Source of the DNA: Pseudothermotoga hypogea DSM 11164 = NBRC 106472 | Lineage (GTDB): Bacteria > Thermotogota > Thermotogae > Thermotogales > DSM-5069 | Direction of reading: 5' to 3' | DNA: 64,000 nucleotides | NCBI RefSeq assembly: GCF_000816145.1 | Contig: NZ_CP007141.1 | Location: 1,178,001-1,242,000 of the forward strand | Part shown: positions 1,184-61,870 of the stretch, in pieces | Layout of the letters: each line of letters starts with the position of its first letter | Position numbering within the stretch: position 1 is the stretch's first letter | The notes under the pieces: model-generated | Told to the model about the DNA's origin: nothing | Databases searched by the model: none | The model's input: only the letters and a program-made list of their open reading frames with translations | Translations under genes and position numbers: made by a program

Positions 1184-3714
1184 GTTGGACCCTCCTTCAG
1201 AAGTTCGACGATGTAGTCGTAGATTCTTTTCTCTGCACGAAGTTCGTTGAGCTTTCTCATCAGACGCTTTGATACCTTTCCCCGATTCAACGCGAGAGAA
1301 ACTATCAGTTCGAGCAACGTTCTTTTCTTGCTCAGTAGCTCATGCTTGCTCATATGGTATTCGCGCGAGTTCTTCTTCAAACCTTTCAGAATCTCTTCGA
1401 GTTGCTCGATCTCTTCTTCGATGATTTCGATCTTTTCCTTCATCTGCTCAAGCTCATGCTCTGTGATCTTTTTGAACACGAACTGCGGGAATCTCAAAGA
1501 GCTGAGTATCTCAACTTCAGCTCGATCATCACCACTGGGGAAAACCACGTCGATTGGAATCGTGCTTATTTGACTTGGCTTCAAACCATGCATCGGTTTG
1601 GAGTAAGGGTTGTAGACCAACAGTTCGCTGTTCTCGACGCAGATCCAAGGAAGTGAACCAGAAAAGAATTTCAGAGATTCCAAACCACGATCATCTCGTT
1701 TATTCACGGAAAGAAGCATCGGTGGATCGTCGAACAGGTTGAACCACTTGAAAAACTCTTCGGACCGCACATCCGTGTTCAGATCACAGATAGCGAGTTC
1801 GAAATCGATCGTTCCCTCACATCTGGCATCTGGAACGTACATCAAGGGTCCCGCATCGCCCGTTCGACCTCTCACGTTGTTCTTTGCGACCCATTCGACA
1901 CTTCTGATCAGATCTATCTTTATGTCGCCTTCTTCATCCACCTCGTACTGATGCACACCCTTCGCCATCACGGCCAGAGTTTTTTCACCTTGAAGAGCGA
2001 CAAAACCTTGGAACGGGAATTTTCTTATCGATCCAACTTCCCTTGCGGCGAGCAGAACCGAATTGAGGTTCTTCTCAGCGTTCTGTGGCAACAAATCGGT
2101 ATCGATCCTGTCCCTCTCGACGACATCGAACGGCATCTTTGCGAAAACCTTGGAAGTTCTGTCGAAGCTCTTGGTGATGAAGCTCAGAAGATAGTTTCTT
2201 CCAGAAGCGTGAACAATTATGTTCCACTTAACGAGTGGAGATTCGTCGAAGATTATCCTTTCCTCCGTTTCGATGGACACACCTTCGGCTTCGATGATCC
2301 TTTTCAACCGAACGATCTTGTGTCTCTCACCTGCGCGTTCAACCTGCATCTCTGAGACTCGGCAAGAGAAGTCGATTTCTTCCGTGTCCGTGGAGTAACA
2401 GTCACCAAGTTCTCTTTCCAGGTGCAGAACACCCGTCACGATCCCATTGACATCCAAACTTCCATCCTCATTGAATAAGGCTTCGTAATGATCGTTCCTG
2501 AAAGAAAGTGTCTCATCTGAGCGCGTTACATCGAACTCGTTCACCTTGAAAAGTCCAACGCCTTCACTCTGCAACCTGTAGCATCTTTCGCCGTCGCAAT
2601 AGTAATGATCGTATTCGAAGGGAGAGAAAGAAACGGCGTACAGACCCTTTTCGAGGTGAGTTGCGAGTTTTTTCAACTCTTTCTTGAGAGATTTTTCCAG
2701 CGAGCCGAACAACTTTTTGTAGACAGACTGCATCTTTCTGTGAATCGTGTCCACGCAGACTCCACAGATGTTGTCGTGCACAAGCGTTTTCAGATACGTT
2801 CTGTACAGTTCATCGACGCGCTCGTTGTGAAGAGAACTCAACAGTTCGACGTATCTGAGCAATTTGCCCACGACGTAAGCCTGACGCTTCAAATAAACCC
2901 TCGAAGACAACGTGCCAGGAAAGACACACGCGTACTTTCCACTCAGCAGTTCTCCACTGATCTTTGGAGGTTCTGCGATCTTCGAAAAGGCTTCATTCAA
3001 ATACTTCTCTGGAGATGAGAGTTCGATTTCTTCATTGAGAAGATCGCGTGGATCTTCCGGATTCACATCCAGATCGTAACCATCCAAGAGCGGTACGAAG
3101 CCGGAAAGAGAAAAGATCTTGAGCTTTTCTATCTCGTGTTTCAATCGCTTCTTAGCCAAATCTCTGGTGCGTGATAGTCCATAGAGGTTTCTGTAACCAC
3201 CTATGAGGAAGATGCATTTCACAGAAGAGCCATCCTTCGACTCCCACAAGAACTCGATGGAAGGTTTTTCAAGCTTCACTCCCCTCCAGAGGAACGCACC
3301 TTCGATGCCGTAACGTTTGAAAAGCTGCGGGAGCTGAGATATGAAGCCGAAGTTGTCCACCATCCAAGCAACAGACGCATCGCCGCCGAATTTCTTCACA
3401 TCCTCTTTTCCAAGCTCGAAGTTCTTGATGATAGCCACCTCTGGAGAGAGCCTGAAATCTATTTGAGCGTAAAGAGGTCCGATAAAGAGGTTGCCGGACC
3501 GAACAAGCTCTTTCACTTTTTCCCGGAACTCTGGTGCTGTGCTCAGAAGATCTTCCAAGATGAGCGTTTGACCATCGAGAACGTAACGGTAATCTCTTTT
3601 TGTCGAAATCAGATCAAGAAGCCTTTCGAAGAGCTCCTTGAGCCATTCGTTTGTGACGAATGAAGGGGCGAACCACTCCCTGTCCCAATGTGTGTGACAG
3701 ATCACACGGTTCAA
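1180..3714 (-). CDS. GH38 alpha-mannosidase family glycoside hydrolase
   Basis: This 844-residue protein opens with the GH38 signature HTHWDREW (7-14), where H9 and D11 are the expected zinc ligands. VDNFGF follows, with D120 as the expected catalytic nucleophile and zinc ligand. GH38 enzymes are retaining, zinc-dependent exo-alpha-mannosidases; the family also includes E. coli MngB, which cleaves 2-O-mannosylglycerate. The C-terminal 90 residues form a charged, Glu/Lys-rich helical tail unusual for a catalytic barrel. There is no signal peptide, so the enzyme is cytoplasmic. Its ATG overlaps the stop of the ABC ATPase gene and its TGA overlaps the start of the glycosyltransferase. The substrate is therefore probably the imported solute. 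Family is secure; substrate is not. Confidence 0.93.
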   Translation of the reverse strand: MNRVICHTHWDREWFAPSFVTNEWLKELFERLLDLISTKRDYRYVLDGQTLILEDLLSTAPEFREKVKELVRSGNLFIGPLYAQIDFRLSPEVAIIKNFELGKEDVKKFGGDASVAWMVDNFGFISQLPQLFKRYGIEGAFLWRGVKLEKPSIEFLWESKDGSSVKCIFLIGGYRNLYGLSRTRDLAKKRLKHEIEKLKIFSLSGFVPLLDGYDLDVNPEDPRDLLNEEIELSSPEKYLNEAFSKIAEPPKISGELLSGKYACVFPGTLSSRVYLKRQAYVVGKLLRYVELLSSLHNERVDELYRTYLKTLVHDNICGVCVDTIHRKMQSVYKKLFGSLEKSLKKELKKLATHLEKGLYAVSFSPFEYDHYYCDGERCYRLQSEGVGLFKVNEFDVTRSDETLSFRNDHYEALFNEDGSLDVNGIVTGVLHLERELGDCYSTDTEEIDFSCRVSEMQVERAGERHKIVRLKRIIEAEGVSIETEERIIFDESPLVKWNIIVHASGRNYLLSFITKSFDRTSKVFAKMPFDVVERDRIDTDLLPQNAEKNLNSVLLAAREVGSIRKFPFQGFVALQGEKTLAVMAKGVHQYEVDEEGDIKIDLIRSVEWVAKNNVRGRTGDAGPLMYVPDARCEGTIDFELAICDLNTDVRSEEFFKWFNLFDDPPMLLSVNKRDDRGLESLKFFSGSLPWICVENSELLVYNPYSKPMHGLKPSQISTIPIDVVFPSGDDRAEVEILSSLRFPQFVFKKITEHELEQMKEKIEIIEEEIEQLEEILKGLKKNSREYHMSKHELLSKKRTLLELIVSLALNRGKVSKRLMRKLNELRAEKRIYDYIVELLKEGPT

Positions 3715-43639: not shown

Positions 43640-43819
43640 TCACTCTATGAACATCAACATCATTTTCGCCGCTCTTATGACCATCCTCAAACTGTCGTAA
43701 GACTCAGCTTGTGCTACTGAGAGAACCATGTAAAAACCCTTGTCTGGTACTTCAAAGATCGTGAATTCAACGTGGCAAGATAAGGTTGTGGCTTTGTTTA
43801 ATCCCATGAGACTTACCAT
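43640..43819 (-). pseudogene. Remnant of the FTIFEVP gene family (copy A)
   Basis: A minus-strand frame starting at an ATG at 43819 encodes 59 residues that end EFTIFEVPDKGFYMVLS and SYDSLRMVIRAAKMMLMFIE. Copy B at 57962-58276 matches this peptide almost residue for residue over its last 45 positions, so the frame is or was coding. A TAA lies just upstream of the ATG, and the longer copy B shows that the N-terminal part is missing here. The family is not one I recognise. It occupies the gap between two envelope-protein genes; the rest of the 435-bp gap shows nothing else clear. Confidence 0.6.
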
Positions 43820-44000
43820 CCGTGAAGTCCGTTATGTGGAAAAACAAGTGTGGTAATACGTTATGGTGCGACAACTCTTCTTGGTTCGTCGATATGAAGA
43901 AGTGAGCCTTCGAAAGATCAAGCAAGAAGTCATTCTGCGCGGCGAGGGTTTTTCTCATCTATAATTTGAATTGACCAAACGCTGTGAGGGGGGTGCTCTC

Positions 44001-45461: not shown

Positions 45462-46049
45462 CTACAGCTCTCCCCGAAAAGCTTTGTTCAATATGGCTTG
45501 CTCTAGACGTTTGAGTTTTTCCTCTGTTTGATCCTGTGCCTCTTTCAAGGCTTTGATTTTCTCCTGCACTTCTTGGAGGTGTGCCACAATGCGTTTTTGT
45601 TCTTCAAGGGGTGGGAGGGGGATAGTGATTGCGAGGTACTCATTGAAGCGAAGGTTTCTTATGTTGGTGGTTTGTGTCTGGAGTGGCTCTGTTCGTCCGG
45701 ATATGTGGAAATGGAACAAGTAATAAAACAAAAACTTGGGTTCAACATCTGCACGTGAAACACGTAGACATGTAATGAAGTTACCAAAGCAGTATGTTCC
45801 TTGCCCCTGAAAATAGGCAACTCTACCGACCGGTTTGTTTGGTCCTCCGCCGGATCGTTCCAAAAGTATACCTCCTGGCTGCAAAATGGATTTTCTCAGT
45901 TGTTTCTCATTTAAAGCAAGCCGAATAGCTGTCCCATAAGATAGGCTACCATCAGGTAAAAAATCAGTTGATCGAAGAACAGGGATACCCTCGGGATCAG
46001 CCTGCGCCCACACCCCGGATTTGTAATCACACACCTCCCCCAATCTCAC
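45462..46049 (-). CDS. hsdS: Orphan half-size type I restriction specificity subunit (HsdS)
   Basis: This 195-residue protein has one target-recognition domain and one long coiled-coil spacer: it starts RLGEVCDYKSG, carries ITIPLPPLEEQKRIVAHLQEV, and ends EEKLKRLEQAILNKAFRGEL. Full HsdS subunits contain two such halves (about 400 residues). In the same frame, coding-like sequence (INEGPYKLPEGWRWV) continues upstream to a stop at 46110 without a good start codon, so the gene is truncated. No hsdM or hsdR lies nearby. It is probably a relic, or a stand-alone half-subunit working with a remote system. Confidence 0.82.
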   Translation of the reverse strand: MRLGEVCDYKSGVWAQADPEGIPVLRSTDFLPDGSLSYGTAIRLALNEKQLRKSILQPGGILLERSGGGPNKPVGRVAYFQGQGTYCFGNFITCLRVSRADVEPKFLFYYLFHFHISGRTEPLQTQTTNIRNLRFNEYLAITIPLPPLEEQKRIVAHLQEVQEKIKALKEAQDQTEEKLKRLEQAILNKAFRGEL

Positions 46050-46427: not shown

Positions 46428-47246
46428 TTGAGGGTTCGGTTCGACTTTAGAGTCGACAAGCTTCCGATTCTCTACAGGCACCGCATCATGTCGTTGATAA
46501 AAGAAGCAATCCAGATATCAGATCCAGAGTACAAAGCCATTCTTTATCCTGAAGGATTCAAGCGCACCAAACCCTTCACGTTCAGTGTTTACATACCACC
46601 AGGCTTTAAAACGACTAAAGAGAAATTTCTGCTGGATGATGGCCTAGCTTTGGAAGAAACGGTCTTTCTCCTCGAAAGAGAGATTTCGTTGTTTGTAAGC
46701 TCATGGGCCCCCGAGTTCATTGTCAACCTCTACAATGGCCTTCTAAAGTTGAGAAAGTTCCCACTCTTTGAATTTCTGAGTGAATCGGGTGAAAGACAAA
46801 CGCATCACATTCACCTGGTCCGGGCGGTCGTTTTGAACGAGAGGAAAATAACCGCAGAAGAGGTTCCCTTCAAAACGATGTCTCCCATCTCTCTTGAAGA
46901 CGGGAACGACGAGCCAATAGAGATTTTGAAAAATGATCGGGTCGATCAGGAGGAGCTCAAAAGGTTCGTCCACCATTTGAACGTCGTGCAAGACAAAAGG
47001 TTCAAAGATCTGAGGGGATACGGATTGAAAAAACCGCTCGAATTCGTTCCAAACAAAATAATAAGAAAAGTGGTTAAGCACGCGTTGAAAGGTTTTCGAG
47101 ACGAAACCAAAAAACCGTACATGTTCCTGACTACGTACCATGGAGAATTCGTGCTGAAGGGGGATATGGAAGATCTGAGACTCACCTATCAAGTGGGACT
47201 TGGGCTCAGGACTGGACAAGGATTCGGAATGCTCGAGGTGGTGTAA
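46428..47246 (+). CDS. cas6: CRISPR-associated endoribonuclease Cas6
   Basis: The 272-residue protein has the two-RAMP layout of Cas6. It opens RVRFDFRVDKLPILYRHRIMS and closes with the Gly-rich GLGLRTGQGFGMLEVV motif, which binds the crRNA hairpin or repeat. Cas6 cuts the precursor at the base of each repeat. I chose TTG 46428, eight bases behind AAGGGGG. It is the first gene of the plus-strand cas operon and sits next to cst1 with one intervening base. Confidence 0.92.
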   Translation: MRVRFDFRVDKLPILYRHRIMSLIKEAIQISDPEYKAILYPEGFKRTKPFTFSVYIPPGFKTTKEKFLLDDGLALEETVFLLEREISLFVSSWAPEFIVNLYNGLLKLRKFPLFEFLSESGERQTHHIHLVRAVVLNERKITAEEVPFKTMSPISLEDGNDEPIEILKNDRVDQEELKRFVHHLNVVQDKRFKDLRGYGLKKPLEFVPNKIIRKVVKHALKGFRDETKKPYMFLTTYHGEFVLKGDMEDLRLTYQVGLGLRTGQGFGMLEVV

Positions 47247-47247
47247 G

Positions 47248-48395
47248 GTGGAGTATATTGAACTGAGGCCAAAGAACTGGTTCTACAATTTATCGGTAAC
47301 AGGTTTTTTGGAAGTTTTGGCCGATCAGAACAGCGAAGAAATTGAGAAACTGATCAGGGACGATGGAACAGTTCTAATAGACAGGAAGATATTCGCGAAG
47401 CACAGGGAACTTGATATTCCAGAAGCTTTGGTGAGGTATGTGAATTATCTGGTGAAAGGAGAGAATTTGGACGAATGGCTGGAGGAGAAGAAGAAAAATG
47501 ACCAGAAAACAAACAAAGAAAAGTACAAAAAGTACCACGATATGTTCGGAGAATTCGGCTACAAGTTGGCCAGGAGTTTCAACAAGCTGTTTAGATCGAA
47601 CACACCGTATCAAAATTTGGTTCAGGAAAATGAATGGTCGCACTTCATCGAGCTTGTGAAAAACTTGGAAAAGATCTCAGAAAAGAAAGATACAGAAAAA
47701 TGTGAGATCTGTGGGGGAAAGTGGTACCTCGATTTGGACAAGGCAACCGAGTTCACGAGGAGGTTGTTTCGCTTCGCCTCAGCTCATTCTTCTGAATTTG
47801 GATCGTCCGTAGGAGACTTTCCGAACGCATTCTGGAACAATAATTCTTCTCTGCTTGTCTGTCCACTCTGCGTTTATTTAATCATCCACAGTCACGTGGC
47901 TTGGACAAGGCTGAGCGATTCGACGAGCATCTTCATAAACGCCCCTTCTTTCAAGGTGATGTGGCATTTGAACAAATACGCGAAGGAGCTGTACGGTGCA
48001 GGAAAAGTTGAAGGTGTTAAAGAGCTCTTCGGAATGTCTCTGATCGAGCTTGCGCTGAAACTCAACTTGCAACTTGGAAAATGGACCATGATGAACATAG
48101 AGGTGGTTATCAAGTACAAAGACAAAAAAGGCAAAGACAAAGTGGAATTCTTTTCCATCCCACACGAAATCACCATGCTACTGCTCGACAAAAGTGTGGC
48201 ATCTCTTCTTTTCGACATCGGAAGAACAGAAGTTCTAAGCTGGTTCTTGGATGGTGAATTCGACAAAATACTGCGGGATGGGGAAAGACATTTCCGAGAG
48301 GCTTTGAAGAGTTCCGATGCAAAAACACTGTCATACTCTCAAAAACTCTTCGAGTTGTATGCGCTCGTGAATGAAAAGCGAAAGGGGGGAGCGTT

Positions 48396-48399
<4 letters not shown>
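47248..48399 (+). CDS. cst1: Cascade large subunit, Cst1/Cas8 type (I-B, Tneap)
   Basis: The 383-residue protein bears the two zinc-finger-like pairs of the Cst1 family: CEIC (C152, C155) and CPLC (C205, C208). The rest is helical. It starts at GTG 47248, one base after the cas6 stop. Cas8 proteins recognise the PAM and anchor target DNA in Cascade. It is shorter than a usual large subunit with a built-in C-terminal small-subunit domain. The next gene, overlapping by four bases, may supply that domain. Confidence 0.88.
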
Positions 48400-50088
<1,689 letters not shown>

Positions 50089-50105
50089 AGGGATGGGGCA
50101 AAGTC

Positions 50106-50909
50106 ATGGACAAGTTAAGGGTTTTGAAGATCAAAATCTATCAACCACAGGCTCATTTTAGAATCCCATTCACTTACAAAAGAAGGCTCACCTACCCCAT
50201 ACCACCGTACTCAACCGTGCTGGGTTTGATCGCCAACATGCTTGGTGTGAAAAACGTGCCTGGACAGGAGGAACCGTGCGTTCGTGAGAGCTGCGAGTGC
50301 GTCTATCACAAGTACAAAGAACTCAAGATATCGATTTGTGGCAAATTCAAAGTCAAAACAACTGAGTACGTTTGGCTAAGAAGCTTGGAGAAAGGTTGGC
50401 ACACAAAAAGATTTGGAAGCACGACCAACAGATGTGTGGGAGGACACGTTGAACACATCGGAGGTCAAATGCCCTGCTACGTGGACGTTTTGAACGACGT
50501 CGAGATCTTGATTCACCTTTATCACAGAGACAGAGATTTTCTCGAACTGATCGAGAAGAACTTTTTGGAGCCGAAGAACAGAACGTCCACGCTTCATTTG
50601 GGAAGGGCAGAAGACATCTTGGTGGTGAACAAGATCGGTTTTGAAGAACTCGAATTCAAACCCATCAACGGGCAGTTCGACTATTTCTTCTGGGTCCCAC
50701 AGAAGATGTTTGGTTCAAGCGAAAACGTGTTCGATTCGATTCAGGGTTTGACTTACGATCTTCCCACCTTCTACAGAATAAGGAACGGTGCGAGAGAGTT
50801 CGACTACGTGAGGGTGAAGCTGAACGATGGAGACTTCGGGGGGATCAAAGCCCACTACGATAACATCGAGGATGTCCCAGTTTTCTTGGCGGATCCAAGG
50901 GGTGGTTGA
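50106..50909 (+). CDS. cas5: Cascade subunit Cas5 (Cas5t)
   Basis: The 267-residue protein starts with the Cas5 signature PQAHFRIPFTYKRRLTYPIP and STVLGLIANMLGV, and has a single ferredoxin-like fold. It binds the 5' handle of the crRNA. A Cys-rich stretch CVRESCEC (about 59-66) is unusual. The ATG follows AAAGGGATGGGGCAAAGTC. It ends one base before cas3. Confidence 0.93.
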   Translation: MDKLRVLKIKIYQPQAHFRIPFTYKRRLTYPIPPYSTVLGLIANMLGVKNVPGQEEPCVRESCECVYHKYKELKISICGKFKVKTTEYVWLRSLEKGWHTKRFGSTTNRCVGGHVEHIGGQMPCYVDVLNDVEILIHLYHRDRDFLELIEKNFLEPKNRTSTLHLGRAEDILVVNKIGFEELEFKPINGQFDYFFWVPQKMFGSSENVFDSIQGLTYDLPTFYRIRNGAREFDYVRVKLNDGDFGGIKAHYDNIEDVPVFLADPRGG

Positions 50910-50910
50910 A

Positions 50911-53415
50911 ATGAACGCAAACGCCACGGAAAAGGTTAAGATCTTGGCAAAAACGACCGATCCTCGCGCGGGTGAGGTAACTCTTTCAAGGCATGTCAAA
51001 GACGTGCTGAAAGTCTTCGAAGCTTTGAGAGAGACCTTGAAGATAGAAGAAGACCTAAGCGAGGCTGTGAGGATCGCGATTTTTCTTCACGACCTTGGAA
51101 AGGTCCTACCCGCGTTTCAGATAAAACAGCTTCGAAACAGGAACTACGAACCTTGGGATGTGGTGTACGAAATACCCCATTCACTGTTCTCCATATTCCT
51201 GTTGAACGTGGATAGGCTGAAGAAGAAACTCGAGGAGAAGTTTAAAGAAAGGGCTGAAGATCTCTTCAACTTCTTGATCTCCTCGATCGCTTATCACCAC
51301 TGGAGGGAAGGGTACGAAGCTTTTCTCATTTCGAACAAACGCGAACTCGTCGCGGTTTGTCAAAAGCTCAAAGGGGAATGGGAAGAACCCCTTTTGAGAA
51401 ATCTCCGACAAGAACTCCAAGACTTTGAAGATTATTACCTTGATCTTGTTGGAACTAACAACGAGCTCGTCGAAGCCATTTTGAACGGAAGGAAACTTGT
51501 GAAACTCGTCGTACCACCGTACAAGTTCGACTACGAACCTTTGAGGAAGCAAATGAAAAAAGAGTGGATCCTCATCTCTGGAATTCTACAAAGATGTGAT
51601 CACTTTGCTTCGTGGTGTGAAATGGAGGGATTCGACGAGCTCGGGAAAATCGAGCAAAAGGTCGAAGTGAACGTGAGGGAAAACATCGAAAAGAAGATAG
51701 GATCGAACGCCTGGCAGTTTTCAAAGATCAACGATCTGACCGACAAGAACGTGGTTCTCATCGCTCCAACTGGTTATGGTAAGACCGAGTTCGCCTTCCT
51801 GTGGTCTAACTCGGAAAAGCTCTTGTACACACTTCCCTTACGCGTCGCGGTGAACCAGATACACGACAGGGCTGAGGGGATCTTCGGGAAAGATAAAGTC
51901 GGTCTGTTGCACTCCGACGCAGACTTGTTCCTCTTGGAGAAGGGTGATGAGATGGTTGATCCAATGAAGGTTTATGAGCTTTCCAGGCAACTTTCGTACC
52001 CCGTGATAGTTTCAACTGGAGACCAGTTCTTCCCATACGCCTTGAGACCACCCGGCTACGAGAAGATATTTGCGACGCTCTCTCACTCTCGTCTCGTGAT
52101 AGACGAAATCCAAGCCTACGATCCAAAGGCATGTGCGATAATCGTGAAGCTCATCCAATGGGTGCAGAAGATGGGTGGAAATTTCCTGCTGATGACGGCA
52201 ACCTTACCAGAATTTGTGGAGGGGGAACTGCCGAAAGAATTCGAGAAGATAAACATCTACGAAGAGAAGAAGCAAGATTTCGAGAAGATCATCAAACACA
52301 AAGTGCAGATCGAAGAGATAGAAAACGAAGATTCGAACTTCGATCTCAGGGAAAAGAACATCGACGAGATTCTCCGTCAAGCTCGAAAGGGAAAGAGAGT
52401 TCTTGTGATCCTGAATACGATAAAACTGGCGAAGAAAGTCTTCGAAAGGTTGAAATCAAAACTGAGGGACCAGGGTGACGATTGCAAGATCTTCCTCCTC
52501 CATTCCGAGTTCACGTTCGGGGATAGAAGAAGGAAAGAAGTGGAGATCTTGAAACACTTCGGCAACCCAAAACCGAAGGATGAAAAAGAAGCCAAGGTAC
52601 TGGTGACAACACAAGTTGTGGAAGCATCTTTGGACATAGATGCGGACTGCCTATTCACGGAAATCTGCCCGTTGGATGCCTTGATCCAACGAATGGGAAG
52701 GGTGATAAGAAGATACATTTACGCGAACGGAAGGGTTTTGAACAAAAGCGATGGGAAAGAGTACAAACTGCATCAAGAAATAAGACTCTACGACGGGTCA
52801 GAACCGAACGTCTTCGTGTGGGTATTCAAAGAAGGATATCAATCCGGTAGAGGTGCTGTTTATTCGAAAGATCAAATTGAGCAGACAAAAGAGATCATCA
52901 AAGAGGAAATCCGTCGAACAGCGGAAATGTCCGAATTTCGCAAGTATGAGATCGTCAACGATTATTACCGCTCGTTGAGAAACTCTAAAAAGTATCTCGA
53001 CGAGTTCTACAAGACCATCGAGATACTGAACGCTGGTTTCATGTCCGAGAGAAAAAGCGAAGCTTTTCAAATATTCAGAGAGATTTACTCGATACCAGTG
53101 ATACCGGAAAGCTTAGAGAAGCATTTCGTCAGAGAAATCAAAAAATACTCTCAAAAGGATAGTCTCAGTTACTCCGATTTCAAACTGAAAGTCTTGTCTC
53201 ACTTCGTTGTGAACGTAGATGCACGAAAGTACATCACCAAGAAAGCGATATCGCTGCGTCCAACTAAAGATTTGGTGTACGAAGCGAACATTGAAGCTGA
53301 GAAGGGATCGAGGATTGAAAGATGGCTCGATGGGATATACCTCTGCTCTGGGGAATACGATCCTGAGGAAGGCTTCACACCCAGAGAAACTCGAGAGGCT
53401 CACATCGTAGACTGA
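50911..53415 (+). CDS. cas3: CRISPR-associated helicase-nuclease Cas3 (HD + DExD/H)
   Basis: The 834-residue protein has an HD nuclease N-domain (H28; H60-D61 in FLHDLGK; H90; H129-H130 in YHHW). A superfamily 2 helicase follows: APTGYGKTE with K291, DEIQ at 398-401, LLMTATLP, and QRMGRVIRR with Q593-R597. The protein unwinds and degrades target DNA recruited by Cascade. ATG 50911 lies one base behind the cas5 stop; the longer frame reaching 50827 runs through cas5. All key residues are present. Confidence 0.95.
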   Translation: MNANATEKVKILAKTTDPRAGEVTLSRHVKDVLKVFEALRETLKIEEDLSEAVRIAIFLHDLGKVLPAFQIKQLRNRNYEPWDVVYEIPHSLFSIFLLNVDRLKKKLEEKFKERAEDLFNFLISSIAYHHWREGYEAFLISNKRELVAVCQKLKGEWEEPLLRNLRQELQDFEDYYLDLVGTNNELVEAILNGRKLVKLVVPPYKFDYEPLRKQMKKEWILISGILQRCDHFASWCEMEGFDELGKIEQKVEVNVRENIEKKIGSNAWQFSKINDLTDKNVVLIAPTGYGKTEFAFLWSNSEKLLYTLPLRVAVNQIHDRAEGIFGKDKVGLLHSDADLFLLEKGDEMVDPMKVYELSRQLSYPVIVSTGDQFFPYALRPPGYEKIFATLSHSRLVIDEIQAYDPKACAIIVKLIQWVQKMGGNFLLMTATLPEFVEGELPKEFEKINIYEEKKQDFEKIIKHKVQIEEIENEDSNFDLREKNIDEILRQARKGKRVLVILNTIKLAKKVFERLKSKLRDQGDDCKIFLLHSEFTFGDRRRKEVEILKHFGNPKPKDEKEAKVLVTTQVVEASLDIDADCLFTEICPLDALIQRMGRVIRRYIYANGRVLNKSDGKEYKLHQEIRLYDGSEPNVFVWVFKEGYQSGRGAVYSKDQIEQTKEIIKEEIRRTAEMSEFRKYEIVNDYYRSLRNSKKYLDEFYKTIEILNAGFMSERKSEAFQIFREIYSIPVIPESLEKHFVREIKKYSQKDSLSYSDFKLKVLSHFVVNVDARKYITKKAISLRPTKDLVYEANIEAEKGSRIERWLDGIYLCSGEYDPEEGFTPRETREAHIVD

Positions 53416-53461
53416 AGGTTGGGGGGCGAGCTGAATTTTCGACAGAACCGACCTGCAGAGG

Positions 53462-53947
53462 TTGAAGATCAACGGCGTGAAGATCAATTATTTGTACGTC
53501 TGTGAAAGGAAACTGTGGTTGTTCGACAGAGGAATTCAGTTGGAAGAAAACTCTGAGAAGGTCTTGCTGGGAAAGCTTCTCAGTGAATATTCTTACCCAA
53601 GCGAAACGAGGAGAGAAGTCCTCATAGACGACTTGATAAAAATAGACGTGATGGGCGAGGAAGAAATCAGAGAAATCAAGTACAGCAACAGCTTAGCGAG
53701 CGCGAATAGAATTCAAATACTCTACTATCTTTATTATCTAAAAATGCTCGGGATCGAGAGAAAGGGGATCATAAATTATCCGAAAATGAGAAGAATGGAA
53801 GAAGTTTCGCTGACACCAGAGGCCGAAAGAGAAGTTGAACAAGCCATAAAGAGGGTTGAAGAGGTCCTGAGTTCACCCAGACCACCGGAAGTCAAGAGGA
53901 AGTCCTATTGTCCAAAATGCGCTTACTATGAATTTTGCTTTGGATAG
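53462..53947 (+). CDS. cas4: CRISPR-associated exonuclease Cas4
   Basis: The 161-residue RecB-like nuclease has its four Fe-S cysteines (C14 in YVCERKLW; C150, C153 and C159 in SYCPKCAYYEFCFG) and the active-site EIREIKYS region. Cas4 trims prespacers and selects PAM. TTG 53462 gives the family's usual N-terminus but lacks a good ribosome site. GGGGGGCGAG (about 53424) is better placed for an ATT start further upstream in the same frame. The gap to cas1 is six bases. Confidence 0.9.
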   Translation: MKINGVKINYLYVCERKLWLFDRGIQLEENSEKVLLGKLLSEYSYPSETRREVLIDDLIKIDVMGEEEIREIKYSNSLASANRIQILYYLYYLKMLGIERKGIINYPKMRRMEEVSLTPEAEREVEQAIKRVEEVLSSPRPPEVKRKSYCPKCAYYEFCFG

Positions 53948-53953
53948 GGGTGA

Positions 53954-54937
53954 ATGACTTTGAGACCCTACTATATATTCTCGAGTGGGCGAATCATGAG
54001 GAGAGAAAACACGATCTATGTCGAAAACGAAAAAGGGGAAAAGAAGGCTCTACCAATCGAAGAGGTAGAATCCTTGCACATCTTCGGTGAAGTGGAGATG
54101 AACACAAAATTTTTGAATTTCTTATCTCAGCACGGAAAACCTATTCACTTCTACAATTACTATGGTTTTTACTCCGGCAGCTTTGTGCCGAGGTCCAAAA
54201 ATATCTCCGGTGAGCTTTTGGTAAAGCAGGTTGAGTACTATCTCGATAACGAGAAAAGGCTTTATCTGGCCAAAGCTTTTGTGGAAGGCGCGACTTTTCA
54301 CATGCTGAGAAACCTCAGAAATTACGACGGGACAGAAGAATTTGTGAGAATCATCAGCGAAGAGCAAGCCAAGTCGTTCGAAGCCAAAACCGTGCCGGAG
54401 TTGATGGGCTGTGAGGGAAGAGCGAGAGAGGCTTATTATCAAGCGTTCAACACGATTACGAGTGGCAGACTGGCAATGAATAAGCGAGAGAAAAGGCCAC
54501 CAAAGGATCCCATCAACGCTTTGATTTCCTTTGGTAACTCCGTTATGTACTCGGTTGTACTCTCGGAAATATACAAAACCGAGCTCAACCCAACGATAAG
54601 TTACCTGCACGAGCCAAGGGAAAGGAGATTTTCACTGAGCTTAGACATTTCTGAGATATTCAAGCCTTTGATAGTCGATCCGATCATTTTCAAGCTAATA
54701 AACAACAGCATGCTCAAAGAAGAGGATTTCGAAGATGAACTCGATTTTTGTTACCTAACATCATCTGGAAAAAAGAAGTTTTTGAAGGAATTCGAGGAAA
54801 AGCTTGAAACCACCATTAAACACAGAAAGCTGAAAAGGAGCGTCTCCTATAGGACCCTTATTCGTCTCGAGTGTTACAAGCTTATAAGACATTTACTACA
54901 AGACGAATTCTACAAACCTCTGAAGGCGTGGTGGTGA
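53954..54937 (+). CDS. cas1: CRISPR integrase Cas1
   Basis: The 327-residue protein has the metal-binding triad E154 (CEGRAREAYYQAF), H219 (SYLHEP) and E234 in LDISEIFKP. The N-terminal beta-domain opens RPYYIFSSGRIMRRENTI, typical of type I-B Cas1. It forms the spacer integrase with Cas2. The ATG follows GGGGTGA. Its TGA overlaps the cas2 start. Confidence 0.95.
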   Translation: MTLRPYYIFSSGRIMRRENTIYVENEKGEKKALPIEEVESLHIFGEVEMNTKFLNFLSQHGKPIHFYNYYGFYSGSFVPRSKNISGELLVKQVEYYLDNEKRLYLAKAFVEGATFHMLRNLRNYDGTEEFVRIISEEQAKSFEAKTVPELMGCEGRAREAYYQAFNTITSGRLAMNKREKRPPKDPINALISFGNSVMYSVVLSEIYKTELNPTISYLHEPRERRFSLSLDISEIFKPLIVDPIIFKLINNSMLKEEDFEDELDFCYLTSSGKKKFLKEFEEKLETTIKHRKLKRSVSYRTLIRLECYKLIRHLLQDEFYKPLKAWW

Positions 54938-55203
54938 TGCCTTATTACGTAATCACATACGATGTTTCGGAACAAAGAGTAAACAAAGTTAGAAAGATCT
55001 TGAAAAAGTACTTCGTATGGGTTCAAAATTCTGTTTTTGAGGGGGAAATTAGCTTGGGCAAGCTTGAGAAATGTAAGCAAGAGCTTTTGCAAGTCATAGA
55101 TCAAAGGGAAGATTCAATATACATCTATAAAGTTCATCGTCTCACAGATCTCGACAAGCAAGTAATCGGCGTAGAAAAAGAATTTACCGACAACTTCTTG
55201 TGA
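54937..55203 (+). CDS. cas2: CRISPR-associated Cas2
   Basis: The 88-residue ferredoxin-like protein begins PYYVITYDVSEQRVNKVRKIL (catalytic-type Asp9) and has YFVWVQNSVFEGEIS, both typical of Cas2. It overlaps cas1 by one base. It is the last cas gene and lies 213 bp before the first repeat. Confidence 0.95.
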   Translation: MPYYVITYDVSEQRVNKVRKILKKYFVWVQNSVFEGEISLGKLEKCKQELLQVIDQREDSIYIYKVHRLTDLDKQVIGVEKEFTDNFL

Positions 55204-55416: not shown

Positions 55417-57360
55417 GTTTGATCTGAACTATGTGGGATGTGAACTTCCCAAAGCGTAGTAGTTCAGCTCGCCTGAATTAGGTTTGATCTGAACTATGTG
55501 GGATGTGAACCGTGAGGCGAGAAAGAGGTTTGGGCACAACATTGCTTGTTTGATCTGAACTATGTGGGATGTGAACACTTATGAAAAGAGGTGGGAAGAT
55601 GATCTTGTCTACGTTTGATCTGAACTATGTGGGATGTGAACCAGGTTGAAGAACGTAGTACACGTCCGTTGTGTTGCGTTTGATCTGAACTATGTGGGAT
55701 GTGAACGAGTCAAGGGCGAAGGGAGAGAAAAGTCCACGTAACCACGTTTGATCTGAACTATGTGGGATGTGAACCCGTCCGTTCGGCTGGATTACAAGCA
55801 CAGACACAAGTTTGATCTGAACTATGTGGGATGTGAACCTGTCATGTCTATAGTCTTCCAAGGTACGTCAGAGACGTTTGATCTGAACTATGTGGGATGT
55901 GAACAAAATGATGTACTCAGATCCCGCAACAGGAGCCCAAGGTTTGATCTGAACTATGTGGGATGTGAACTAATGGGATTGATCGTCAACGGGGTGGACT
56001 TAAAAAGTTTGATCTGAACTATGTGGGATGTGAACAAACAGGTCAACATCTCTGTCAAGGTTGAAGAAGTGAGTTTGATCTGAACTATGTGGGATGTGAA
56101 CTTAGATCAAGTCATCGAGGGTGTGACAGGATACCAGGTTTGATCTGAACTATGTGGGATGTGAACCTGTGTTCACTACTTGCTCTTTGGTCAACAGCTT
56201 TGGTTTGATCTGAACTATGTGGGATGTGAACCTGGGAGTGCCCTTCCAGCTTACGAAAGGTGTATTAGGGTTTGATCTGAACTATGTGGGATGTGAACAG
56301 CGCGGTGGCGACAATCACGGAAGAGACCGCGAACAGTTTGATCTGAACTATGTGGGATGTGAACGTCCGTCCATCTATCAGGAGCGCGGTTCTTGAGGAA
56401 GAGTTTGATCTGAACTATGTGGGATGTGAACCTATAAGCTCCGCTCGTACCGCCTGTAACCGAAGGGTTTGATCTGAACTATGTGGGATGTGAACACAGC
56501 CGGGCGAAATCATCGAAATACCCGTCGAAAAGGTTTGATCTGAACTATGTGGGATGTGAACCTATAAGCTCCGCTCGTACCGCCTGTAACCGAAGGGTTT
56601 GATCTGAACTATGTGGGATGTGAACACAGCCGGGCGAAATCATCGAAATACCCGTCGAAAAGGTTTGATCTGAACTATGTGGGATGTGAACCATAAAGAA
56701 CGTTGACGGGCTCTTGCTGGTGGTAATTCAGTTTGATCTGAACTATGTGGGATGTGAACCAATCTTTTCGATGATTCCATACTTTTGCTGTGCGGTTGGT
56801 TTGATCTGAACTATGTGGGATGTGAACGCAGTGTGTATGTGCTTTTGATTGACAAGCGTGATTATAAGGTTTGATCTGAACTATGTGGGATGTGAACCTT
56901 GGATACGTTTGTCTGAAACGCATCTTCAGATTCTTGTTTGATCTGAACTATGTGGGATGTGAACCTTGGATACGTTTGTCTGAAACGCATCTTCAGATTC
57001 TTGTTTGATCTGAACTATGTGGGATGTGAACACTTTCAGAAAGTAATCTTCCGTTGCGTTTGTCAGGTGTTTGATCTGAACTATGTGGGATGTGAACTTG
57101 AGTGTGTTTAGAACATGTTTATTGGTATCAGAGTTTGATCTGAACTATGTGGGATGTGAACACAGGCAAGAGCTAATTGCCAGCGCCAGACATGACCATG
57201 TTTGATCTGAACTATGTGGGATGTGAACTCGGTCTGATTTACAAAATCAAGGTACAGCCTTTTCGTTTGATCTTAACTATGTGGGATGTGAACTTGGCAA
57301 CATAACGAGCCATCTGATCTTGTCTCAATCGCGTTTGATCTGAACTATGTGGTATGTAAC
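55417..57360 (+). CRISPR. CRISPR array, 30 repeats of 29 bp, 29 spacers
   Basis: The repeat begins GTTTGATCTG, has AACTATGTGG in the middle and ends GATGTGAAC. The last eight bases resemble the I-B crRNA handle. Repeats start at 55417, 55482, 55548 and so on to 57333, with spacers of 35-41 nt. The last two repeats carry changes: G to T in the 57265 copy, and a G to T plus a lost base in the 57333 copy. Spacers 16 and 17 are repeated as 18 and 19 (a 130-bp duplicated block), and spacer 23 equals 24, so 26 of 29 spacers are distinct. A 31st related repeat lies 572 bp further on. Confidence 0.98.
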
Positions 57361-57890
57361 CAGTCGCAGACGGACCAAGGCGTTGCCAAAACGCCTATAA
57401 GCGATTCGGCAACAGAAAGTGTTGCCGAAAAGCATGCTGACCAATCGGCAACTGTTGCCGAACAGCGTACTACACAAACGCTAACGTCTGGCACCCAACC
57501 AGCCGAAACCGATCAAGGTGTTGCCAAAAAGGATATATCCCAAACGGCAACACCAAGTGTTGCCAAAACGGAAACACCCCAGGGTGTAATACCCTTAGGT
57601 GAGACATTAACAGCGGAAGAAACCATAGAAATGGTAGATAGACTCTGCGATTTGAACACTACACCGACAACTATTCACGTTCTATGCGGATTCTCGTCAA
57701 ATACAAAAACACAAAATTGATGTTCAGCGTGCGGAAATTGGCACTTGAACTGCATCATGATCATGCGGGGCTACAGAAATACCTTGGGGAATTGCACAAA
57801 CACGTCGTCTTGACCGTGTTTTCGTCACCTCGAGGTACCATCATAGACTTCACGCCACTAAGGGGTGTTGCCAAAACGCATATCAGTTGA
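57349..57890 (+). pseudogene. Broken ORF with GVAK/SVA repeats and wHTH-like end
   Basis: An ORF starting in the last degenerate repeat (GTG 57349) encodes repeated QGVAK, SATESVAE and SVAKTE peptides, then TAEETIEMVDRLCDLN, and stops at 57720. Coding character continues in another frame from 57684: VRKLALELHHDHAGLQKYLGEL and TVFSSPRGTIIDFTPLRGVAK, which looks like a small winged-helix domain and returns to the GVAK motif. A frameshift is therefore likely. The DNA is full of GTTGCC/GGCAAC inverted repeats. It probably is part of a plasmid- or phage-type replication or regulatory gene; I do not recognise the family. Confidence 0.55.
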
Positions 57891-57912
57891 ATGGCAACTG
57901 TTGCCAAAGGCA
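57376..57912. repeat. Iteron-like GTTGCC/GGCAAC repeat field
   Basis: TGTTGCCAAAA or TGTTGCCGAA recurs about seven times (near 57383, 57420, 57451, 57519, 57560, 57868 and 57898). Several copies form tight inverted repeats with CGGCAAC, such as TCGGCAACTGTTGCCGA and GGCAACACCAAGTGTTGCC. The motif also encodes the VAK/VAE peptide repeats, so DNA and protein repeats coincide. Confidence 0.6.
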
Positions 57913-57932
57913 TATCAGCAATTTGTCTACAG

Positions 57933-57961
57933 GTTTCATCTGAACTATGTGGTATGCGAAC
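57933..57961 (+). CRISPR. Detached degenerate CRISPR repeat
   Basis: This 29-bp sequence differs from the array repeat at three positions (G to C at 5, G to T at 21, T to C at 26). It shares the position-21 change with the terminal repeat at 57333. It lies 572 bp beyond the array, with non-spacer sequence between. Confidence 0.85.
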
Positions 57962-58276
57962 ATGAACATCTCGAAATTGAGCGAACCGGTTCAGGGATTG
58001 GATTTGACAATGCTGGTGCGGGAGATCGCAAGAAGCTTGGAGAAGTCTGATTTTGAGACTCTATCTGCAGGTGAGAGAGATTCTCAAAAGTACAGAGCGA
58101 CGAGTTTTGAGACTCTGTCGATGCAGGAAGTCATGGCTGGGCGCGCTGAATTCACGATCTTTGAAGTTCCAAAGAGAGGTTTCTATACGATACTCTCAAC
58201 GACACAAAATGAATCTTAGGACAGTTTGAGGATGCTAATCAAAAGCGCAAAGCAAACGCTGATGTTCATTGAGCGA
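57962..58276 (+). pseudogene. FTIFEVP family gene remnant (copy B)
   Basis: An ATG immediately after the detached repeat starts MNISKLSEPVQGLDLTMLVREI and runs to EFTIFEVPKRGFYTILS. A TAG at 58217 then interrupts the frame. Reading through gives DSLRMLIKSAKQTLMFIE, matching copy A (43640-43819), where Tyr stands in place of the stop. The final TGA of copy A is CGA here. So this copy has lost its reading frame by an in-frame stop and its own stop codon. Two FETLS repeats occur mid-protein. Function unknown. Confidence 0.65.
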
Positions 58277-58282
58277 AAAAGA

Positions 58283-58313
58283 AAAAGGGAAAGGGTCTCT
58301 CCTGGCCCTTTTT
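58283..58313 (+). terminator. Terminator behind copy B
   Basis: AAAGGG/CCCTTT stem (extendable through flanking A and T runs) with a 10-nt loop, then TTT. It precedes the promoter of the FAD operon by about 130 bp. Confidence 0.65.
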
Positions 58314-60225: not shown

Positions 60226-61870
60226 TGTTGCGGTGATAGGTGCTGGGCCTGCTGGGCTTGCGGCTGCCATATCCGCATCCAAGAACGGTTCAAGTGTGGT
60301 GATCATCGAAAGAGAGCCGGAGCTTGGAGGAATACTGAAACAGTGCATCCACGATGGGTTTGGGATTATTCATTTCAGAAAGAGACTCACAGGGCCAGAG
60401 TACGCGGAGATTTTCATCGAAGAGCTTTTGAAGACAGATGTGCACGTTCTCACCAGTACCTTTTTACTGGACGTTCGAAGAGAACAAGGATTTTTCACCT
60501 TGACACTTCAGAACGAAAAAGGCATCTTTTCCATTCGTTCGAAGACCATTGTCCTTGCAACCGGTTGTAGGGAGAGAACCTCCAGGCAGGTCTTCATCCA
60601 CGGCGAACGACCAGCAGGGATCATGACCGCGGGAGCGGCACAGAGGTTTGTGAACATGATGGGTCTTTTGCCTTTCAGAAGATGCGTCGTTTTAGGCAGT
60701 GGGGACATCGGTTTGATCATGGCGCGCAGACTCACCATCGAGGGTGCCAAGGTGATAGGAGTTTACGAGATAAAATTCGAGCCAGCGGGACTCTTGAGGA
60801 ACGTTTCACAGTGCCTGCACGATTTCAACATCCCCTTGTATCTCTCACACACCGTCAGCAAAGTCTTTGGAAAAAATCGTGTCGAGAAGGTCGAAGTGGT
60901 GAGAGTCGATCAAAACCTTTCGTTTGTTGCTGGTAGCGAAAGAACGATCGAATGCGACGGGCTCTTGCTCGCCGTCGGTTTGCTACCCGAGAACGAGTTG
61001 GCTGAAAGGCTCTCACTTCAAATCGATCAAGTCACGAACGGTCCTTTCGTGGATCAGTATTTCATGGGCACGGTGGAAGGTGTTTTCAGCTGTGGAAACT
61101 CTCTGCACGTGCACGATCTGGTGGACTACGTCACGTGGACTGGTTTTGAGGCGGGAAAATGGGCAAGTGAGTACGCAAAGGGCAAACTGAAGGTGCAAAA
61201 GAGAGTTCCACTGAAATTCGATTCATCGTTGCAGTACTGCGTGCCACAGATGTTGAGTTTTCCTCTGACTGGAAAGGTGAGGATCTATTTCAGGGCCAAA
61301 ACGAAGCTTGTGAACGCGCAGATCGCAGTCTCTCAAGCAGGACAAGAGCTTGTTTCGAAGAAGTTCAAAATCTTGAGACCACAGCAGATAGAATTCATCG
61401 ATGTAACGCCGAGGTTCGAAGACGAGCCGTTGGAAATGTCGCTCAAACACGTCTCTTCCTTGGATGAACGAGAGCAACCTTTCAAGAGCCTGGTGTGCAT
61501 CGTGTGTCCAAAAGGTTGTGAGATAGAGCTGTACGGAGATGCCTCAAACCCAATCTTCAGAGGCTATAGTTGTGAGAAGGGGCTCGAATTTGCAAAACAA
61601 GACATCATCAATCCGAGGAGAGTCCTCTGCACGACCGTTCTGACAAAAGATGCAAGACTTCTTCCCGTCAGAACGGACAGAGAGATCCCACTCGAAAGTT
61701 TTGAGAAAGTCATGAACAGAGTGAAGAGCATCGTGGTAAAAAAGACTGTTCGCCGTGGGGAAGTGATCGTGGAGAATATCGAAAACACGAACGCCAATCT
61801 CGTTGCCACTGCGACTCTGTACAATCTTTCTGGGGGGAGGACGAATGTCGAAGCTCGTCTTGAGCGTTGA
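60218..61870 (+). CDS. GlpB-like FAD/NAD oxidoreductase with C-terminal DUF1667
   Basis: The 550-residue protein has FAD motif VAVIGAGPAGLAAA (4-17), NAD motif CVVLGSGDIGLIMA (about 157-170) and ATGCRERTSR typical of this oxidoreductase group. From about residue 425 a DUF1667 domain follows (CIVCPKGCEIEL; GYSCEKGLEFAKQDIINPRRVLCTT). It overlaps the preceding gene by eight bases. It is probably the electron-transfer partner of the GlpA-like dehydrogenase. Confidence 0.88.
   Translation: MYDVAVIGAGPAGLAAAISASKNGSSVVIIEREPELGGILKQCIHDGFGIIHFRKRLTGPEYAEIFIEELLKTDVHVLTSTFLLDVRREQGFFTLTLQNEKGIFSIRSKTIVLATGCRERTSRQVFIHGERPAGIMTAGAAQRFVNMMGLLPFRRCVVLGSGDIGLIMARRLTIEGAKVIGVYEIKFEPAGLLRNVSQCLHDFNIPLYLSHTVSKVFGKNRVEKVEVVRVDQNLSFVAGSERTIECDGLLLAVGLLPENELAERLSLQIDQVTNGPFVDQYFMGTVEGVFSCGNSLHVHDLVDYVTWTGFEAGKWASEYAKGKLKVQKRVPLKFDSSLQYCVPQMLSFPLTGKVRIYFRAKTKLVNAQIAVSQAGQELVSKKFKILRPQQIEFIDVTPRFEDEPLEMSLKHVSSLDEREQPFKSLVCIVCPKGCEIELYGDASNPIFRGYSCEKGLEFAKQDIINPRRVLCTTVLTKDARLLPVRTDREIPLESFEKVMNRVKSIVVKKTVRRGEVIVENIENTNANLVATATLYNLSGGRTNVEARLER

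Follow-up and report, generated by a model that had tools for sequence, protein, structure and literature searches.

New spacers enter CRISPR arrays at the leader end, and the ends of a prespacer are fixed by Cas1-Cas2 approximately one spacer length apart. Some phage and plasmid replication initiator genes, e.g., lambda O, hold iterons inside the gene. Terminal repeats usually display substitutions or deletions at their 3′ ends (PMC8047081). In Sulfolobus islandicus, a transposon has been marked in a CRISPR region (PMC2946923), and one or two degenerate repeats next to a type I-B cas operon fit the definition of CreTA (PMC9458426).

The locus described here lies in a window of 64,000 nucleotides, i.e., bases 1178001 to 1242000 of a 2,165,416-bp single-contig genome. 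In agreement with the sequence-only reading of this DNA, a 572-bp block was confirmed between the last repeat of a compact CRISPR array (R30) and a detached repeat (R31). The coordinates of the features are listed in Table 1.

Table 1. Features of the CRISPR-cas locus, the block, and the adjoining chromosome (window positions)
Feature	Position	Strand	Basis
cas operon, type I-B (cas6, cas8b1/cst1, cas7/cst2, cas5b, cas3, cas4, cas1b, cas2)	46431..55203	+	NCBIfam above curated cut-offs
CRISPR array, 30 repeats of 29 nt, spacers of 35-41 nt	55417..57361	+	Pattern scan and spacer lengths
R30, last and degenerate repeat of the compact array: G21T, 3′ end GTAACC for GTGAAC	57333..57361	+	
Foreign block of 572 bp occupying the position of the oldest spacer: 3′ portion of a broken gene, 11 GTTGCC/GGCAAC hexamers	57361..57932	+	
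Hairpin/iteron-like section	57364..57594	+	Folding z of ~-5 versus synonymous-codon shuffles, both strands
Nonrepetitive coding section spanning the -1 frameshift (~57714), stop at 57888-57890	57595..57887	+	Reading frames
Further iteron units at and past the stop codon, traceable to the last base before R31	57864..57932	+	
R31, detached degenerate repeat: G5C, G21T, T25C versus consensus	57933..57961	+	
Gene X, truncated, on the chromosomal side of the junction (residues 62-165 plus downstream sequence)	57963..58311	+	79% identity to gene X of relative G006

The array, its terminal repeats, and the chromosomal junction

A complete type I-B cas operon precedes the 30-repeat array, the cas2 side being the leader side. 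Because new spacers enter at the leader, here beside cas2, the right end of the array is the oldest, and the degenerate repeats located there agree with this polarity. In other respects the array is an ordinary type I-B array. Spacers 16 and 17 are repeated as spacers 18 and 19 (positions 56432 to 56662) and spacer 23 is identical to spacer 24 (positions 56898 to 57002), so repeat-mediated duplications have occurred within it. Just upstream of cas6, a 195-residue fragment of a type I restriction specificity subunit is encoded on the minus strand (45462 to 46049).

The two terminal repeats, R30 (GTTTGATCTGAACTATGTGGTATGTAACC) and R31 (GTTTCATCTGAACTATGTGGTATGCGAAC), have the G21T change relative to the consensus in common. 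According to our own estimate, the chance of one common substitution, given one and three substitutions, is ~3%, and we regard the presence of G21T in both repeats as only moderate evidence that they were formerly adjacent. The proposal that R30 and R31 were once neighbors is upheld by this change together with the position of R31, which abuts a truncated chromosomal gene and hence is the real end of the array. Besides the 30 array repeats and R31, the genome contains no copy of the repeat, the opposite strand included, and it was likewise absent from 10 genomes of the family as well as from 85,000 species genomes and the viral contigs, the latter two collections possibly omitting records very near the source genome.

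The truncated gene, referred to as gene X, comprises ~165 codons when intact. Its homology, which amounts to 79% over 350 bp in comparison with the relative G006 of the same genus, starts one base past R31, whereas residues 1 to 61 and the neighboring gene are absent from the source genome. Besides G006, three genomes from a second genus of the family have intact copies, and in none of these four relatives does the gene carry a CRISPR repeat. Since the homology begins one base after R31, the border of the CRISPR-cas island with the chromosome lies at this repeat, and the half gene pins it down exactly. A detached repeat representing an ancient independent locus was looked for in the relatives and not found, gene X being intact there without a repeat; judged from this comparison, R31 is the array's real terminal repeat. 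With the true end of the array at R31, the block sits inside the array.

Two truncated tails of gene X are found in opposite orientations, one at 43643 to 43822 on the minus strand and the other next to R31; they flank a 14-kb stretch in which the cas operon and the array lie together with the restriction subunit. In G006, intact gene X adjoins the same upstream genes. A derivation of the CRISPR repeat from gene X was considered and rejected, as R31 matches at only 14 of 29 positions and two further gene X copies gave no match. Within gene X of G006, a stretch a few bases from the junction (L039:3412-3440, minus strand) matches the CRISPR repeat at 17 of 29 positions; this is probably a chance match, with a chance of 0.7% per 60-nt stretch for a stretch that was picked after the fact.

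Degenerate repeats occurring singly or in pairs next to a type I-B cas operon could also point to a CreTA-like RNA antitoxin (creA) or another ectopic-repeat regulator (PMC9458426). In a CreTA system, a spacer-like sequence would be expected to pair with the promoter of a neighboring toxin RNA. For the 11 seed bases following R30 and R31, however, the number of matches of at least 10 of 11 near the locus did not exceed that expected by chance, and the nearest match, at position 60407, is located inside glp-like genes. Moreover, no small toxin was recognized, and the sequence past R31 is ordinary gene X. A function of this kind is therefore considered highly improbable.

Extent and anatomy of the block

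With R30 taken as a 28-nt repeat lacking one G, the interval between the two repeats measures 572 bp. The unit GTTGCC-N20-GGCAAC recurs several times in the block, and the edges of the block were traced by aligning the outermost copies of this unit to the internal ones. To the left, the units reach position 57358, which is one of the four final bases of R30 (P = 0.0045 by shuffling); to the right, they reach position 57932, immediately in front of R31 (P = 0.012 for the best of six comparisons, uncorrected). At this moderate level of significance, the block abuts both flanking repeats, as a spacer does. The units being traceable to both repeats, there is no room for an ordinary spacer of 35 to 41 nt, and the lack of any remnant of one speaks against simple insertion into a normal spacer. 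For the left edge, which features an AAC microhomology, two readings exist: either the last four bases of R30 are given over to the block, or R30 lacks one G and the block begins cleanly behind it, as a spacer would. None of the array spacers matches the block.

An array interrupted by foreign coding DNA that bears inverted repeats might suggest the remnant of a transposon or insertion sequence in the last spacer. The block, however, is single copy in the genome and has no match to any transposase family; in addition, neither a convincing target duplication nor a terminal inverted repeat was seen, and no spacer is left over on either side. We regard such a remnant, which was already disfavored, as quite improbable.

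Another way to fill the interval would be the integration by Cas4-Cas1-Cas2 of an overlong piece of an invader (~570 bp, ~15-fold the usual length) as the founding spacer. Genes cas4, cas1, and cas2 are part of the locus itself, the block occupies the oldest spacer position, and its units reach both repeats without an ordinary-spacer remnant. On the other hand, its 572 bp contrast with 35 to 41 nt for the other 29 spacers and conflict with the fixed distance of about one spacer length between the prespacer ends in Cas1-Cas2. Furthermore, integration would leave an intact repeat, whereas the last bases of R30 resemble the block; this objection is softened by the frequency of 3′-end changes among terminal repeats (PMC8047081). 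Both its length, 15 times the norm, and its odd left edge speak against a canonical spacer, and we consider the capture of a giant spacer rather unlikely. Should the adaptation machinery have taken it up nonetheless, the presumed length limit of Cas1-Cas2 would be breakable, and gene-sized pieces would occasionally be taken up.

The broken coding sequence postulated for the block was confirmed and is a single gene fragment that carries one frameshift. Starting at R30, frame 0 runs open through position 57717 and ends in a TGA at 57718 to 57720, and a single -1 shift at ~57714 leads into a frame that stays open until the TGA at 57888 to 57890. The coding layout comprises a repetitive part, ~90 nonrepetitive residues, and then the repeat again. 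In a low-confidence structure model (pLDDT of 54), the nonrepetitive part displays a helix-helix-hairpin pattern, which we tentatively take as a hint of a winged-helix-like fold. This model, which covers the second fragment, was too poor to be used, and its PDB matches were meaningless.

The GTTGCC/GGCAAC repeats proved to be real, with 11 copies in ~571 to 572 bp versus ~0.28 expected according to our own arithmetic. In the coding parts, nine hexamers were observed, compared to a mean of 1.8 and at most 6 among 20,000 permutations of synonymous codons. For the first 231 coding bases, folding z values of -5.05 and -4.58 were obtained for the two strands, values as low as these being reached by none of 300 synonymous permutations, while control stretches from the neighboring gene scored between -1.1 and +1.5. 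The repeat copies also run on past the stop codon. Because the codon-permutation and folding controls cannot reproduce the repeats, these are a feature of the DNA or RNA and not just of a repetitive protein; the proposal that the hexamers are iteron-like and act at the level of DNA or RNA is thus supported and strengthened. As expected for an iteron-type origin, a cluster of dyad repeats conserved at the DNA level lies within the reading frame. An initiator domain was not detected by matching against Pfam, PHROGs, or PDB with the query protein, an incomplete fragment. The simplest analogy is a replication gene that harbors iterons or a hairpin array.

Elsewhere in the source genome and in 102 other Thermotogota genomes, the hexamer pattern is absent. 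An equally dense GTTGCC cluster was noticed in viral contig L044 (positions 3400 to 3520); it is a simple ATGTTGCC repeat in a nonhomologous stretch and is unrelated.

Origin and entry route of the block

According to the sequence-only reading, the block could be an inserted plasmid or virus fragment or a giant misacquired spacer, and plasmids, phages, and related genomes were proposed as places to search for it. Searches were run with blastn and tblastn, the contig scans reaching close relatives only. No relative was found in phages, plasmids, or viral contigs or in 85,000 genome representatives (species genomes), and nothing significant was obtained in 11 genomes of the family, in 103 genomes of the phylum Thermotogota, or in Pfam, PHROGs, PADLOC, and PDB. 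An invader sequence adjoining a PAM, as expected for the source of a spacer, did not turn up among the phages, plasmids, viral contigs, and species genomes either. Five weak matches within the phylum (E values of 0.01 to 0.06) were rejected as chance for a search of 103 genomes; three of the five were read and correspond to an AAA ATPase, an ArsR-like regulator, and an unrelated frame. Of the original proposal, the former proximity of R30 and R31 and the iteron-like repeats have held up, whereas a plasmid or viral origin is unproven, because no relative was present in any collection searched. Consequently, it is the place and the anatomy of the block from which we infer its origin in a mobile element.

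One route by which a mobile element may have entered is via a CRISPR repeat of its own: a plasmid or virus with one such repeat would have recombined into the array, placing its backbone between two repeats, and most of this backbone would have been deleted later. The resulting block would adjoin a repeat on either side and leave no remnant of a spacer, in line with the observation, and virus-borne mini-CRISPR arrays have been described (PMC6858448). However, the array repeat occurs in no viral contig or other species genome of the collections, and a large subsequent deletion would be required. We therefore rate this route as unlikely. Should it apply, the block would be the fossil of a rarely documented disruption of CRISPR memory by a plasmid or virus.

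We favor, with roughly even confidence, the view that the block is a decayed mobile-element fragment that was lodged in the array by recombination and replaced the oldest spacer. In our ranking of the entry routes, this replacement comes first, integration by way of an element-borne repeat follows at a low probability, and the giant spacer comes after it at a slightly lower one. For replacement by recombination, the following course is conceivable. The arrival of the CRISPR-cas island would have cut gene X in half, with R31 as the junction and R30 and R31 as the two oldest repeats of the array. The source would have been a mobile-element gene with dyad, hairpin-forming, binding-site-like repeats, most like an initiator gene with internal origin iterons, and by this analogy the block is perhaps a fragment of an initiator gene with an embedded origin. 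Entry would presumably have occurred by recombination using the repeats or a short microhomology, such as the AAC at the left edge, as an edge, with loss of the oldest spacer. Subsequent decay would have introduced the frameshift and left no full gene, the block residing at the inert trailing end of the array. It is probably inert itself, an odd fossil rather than a working part. Whichever way it entered, by capture or by recombination, the block would preserve a piece of an unknown hairpin-rich element of the Thermotogota.

Comparison with known systems

R30 and R31 resemble the degenerate trailer-end terminal repeats reported previously (PMC8047081) in being leader-distal and in displaying the usual pattern of substitutions and a 3′-end change, but here they are parted by 572 bp of coding DNA and not by one spacer. 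With the transposon of Sulfolobus islandicus (PMC2946923), the block shares the occurrence of foreign DNA within or beside a CRISPR locus; unlike that case, it lacks a transposase, is single copy, abuts both repeats, and left no spacer remnant. Virus-borne mini-CRISPR arrays (PMC6858448) would provide a repeat with which a host array could recombine, but no element with the repeat of this array was found.

In contrast to initiators of the lambda O type, the block is only a fragment, showed no sequence relationship to them, and yielded no initiator domain. Nevertheless, like initiator genes such as lambda O, it features dyad repeats that are embedded in the reading frame beside a possible DNA-binding domain and that are constrained at the level of DNA or RNA.
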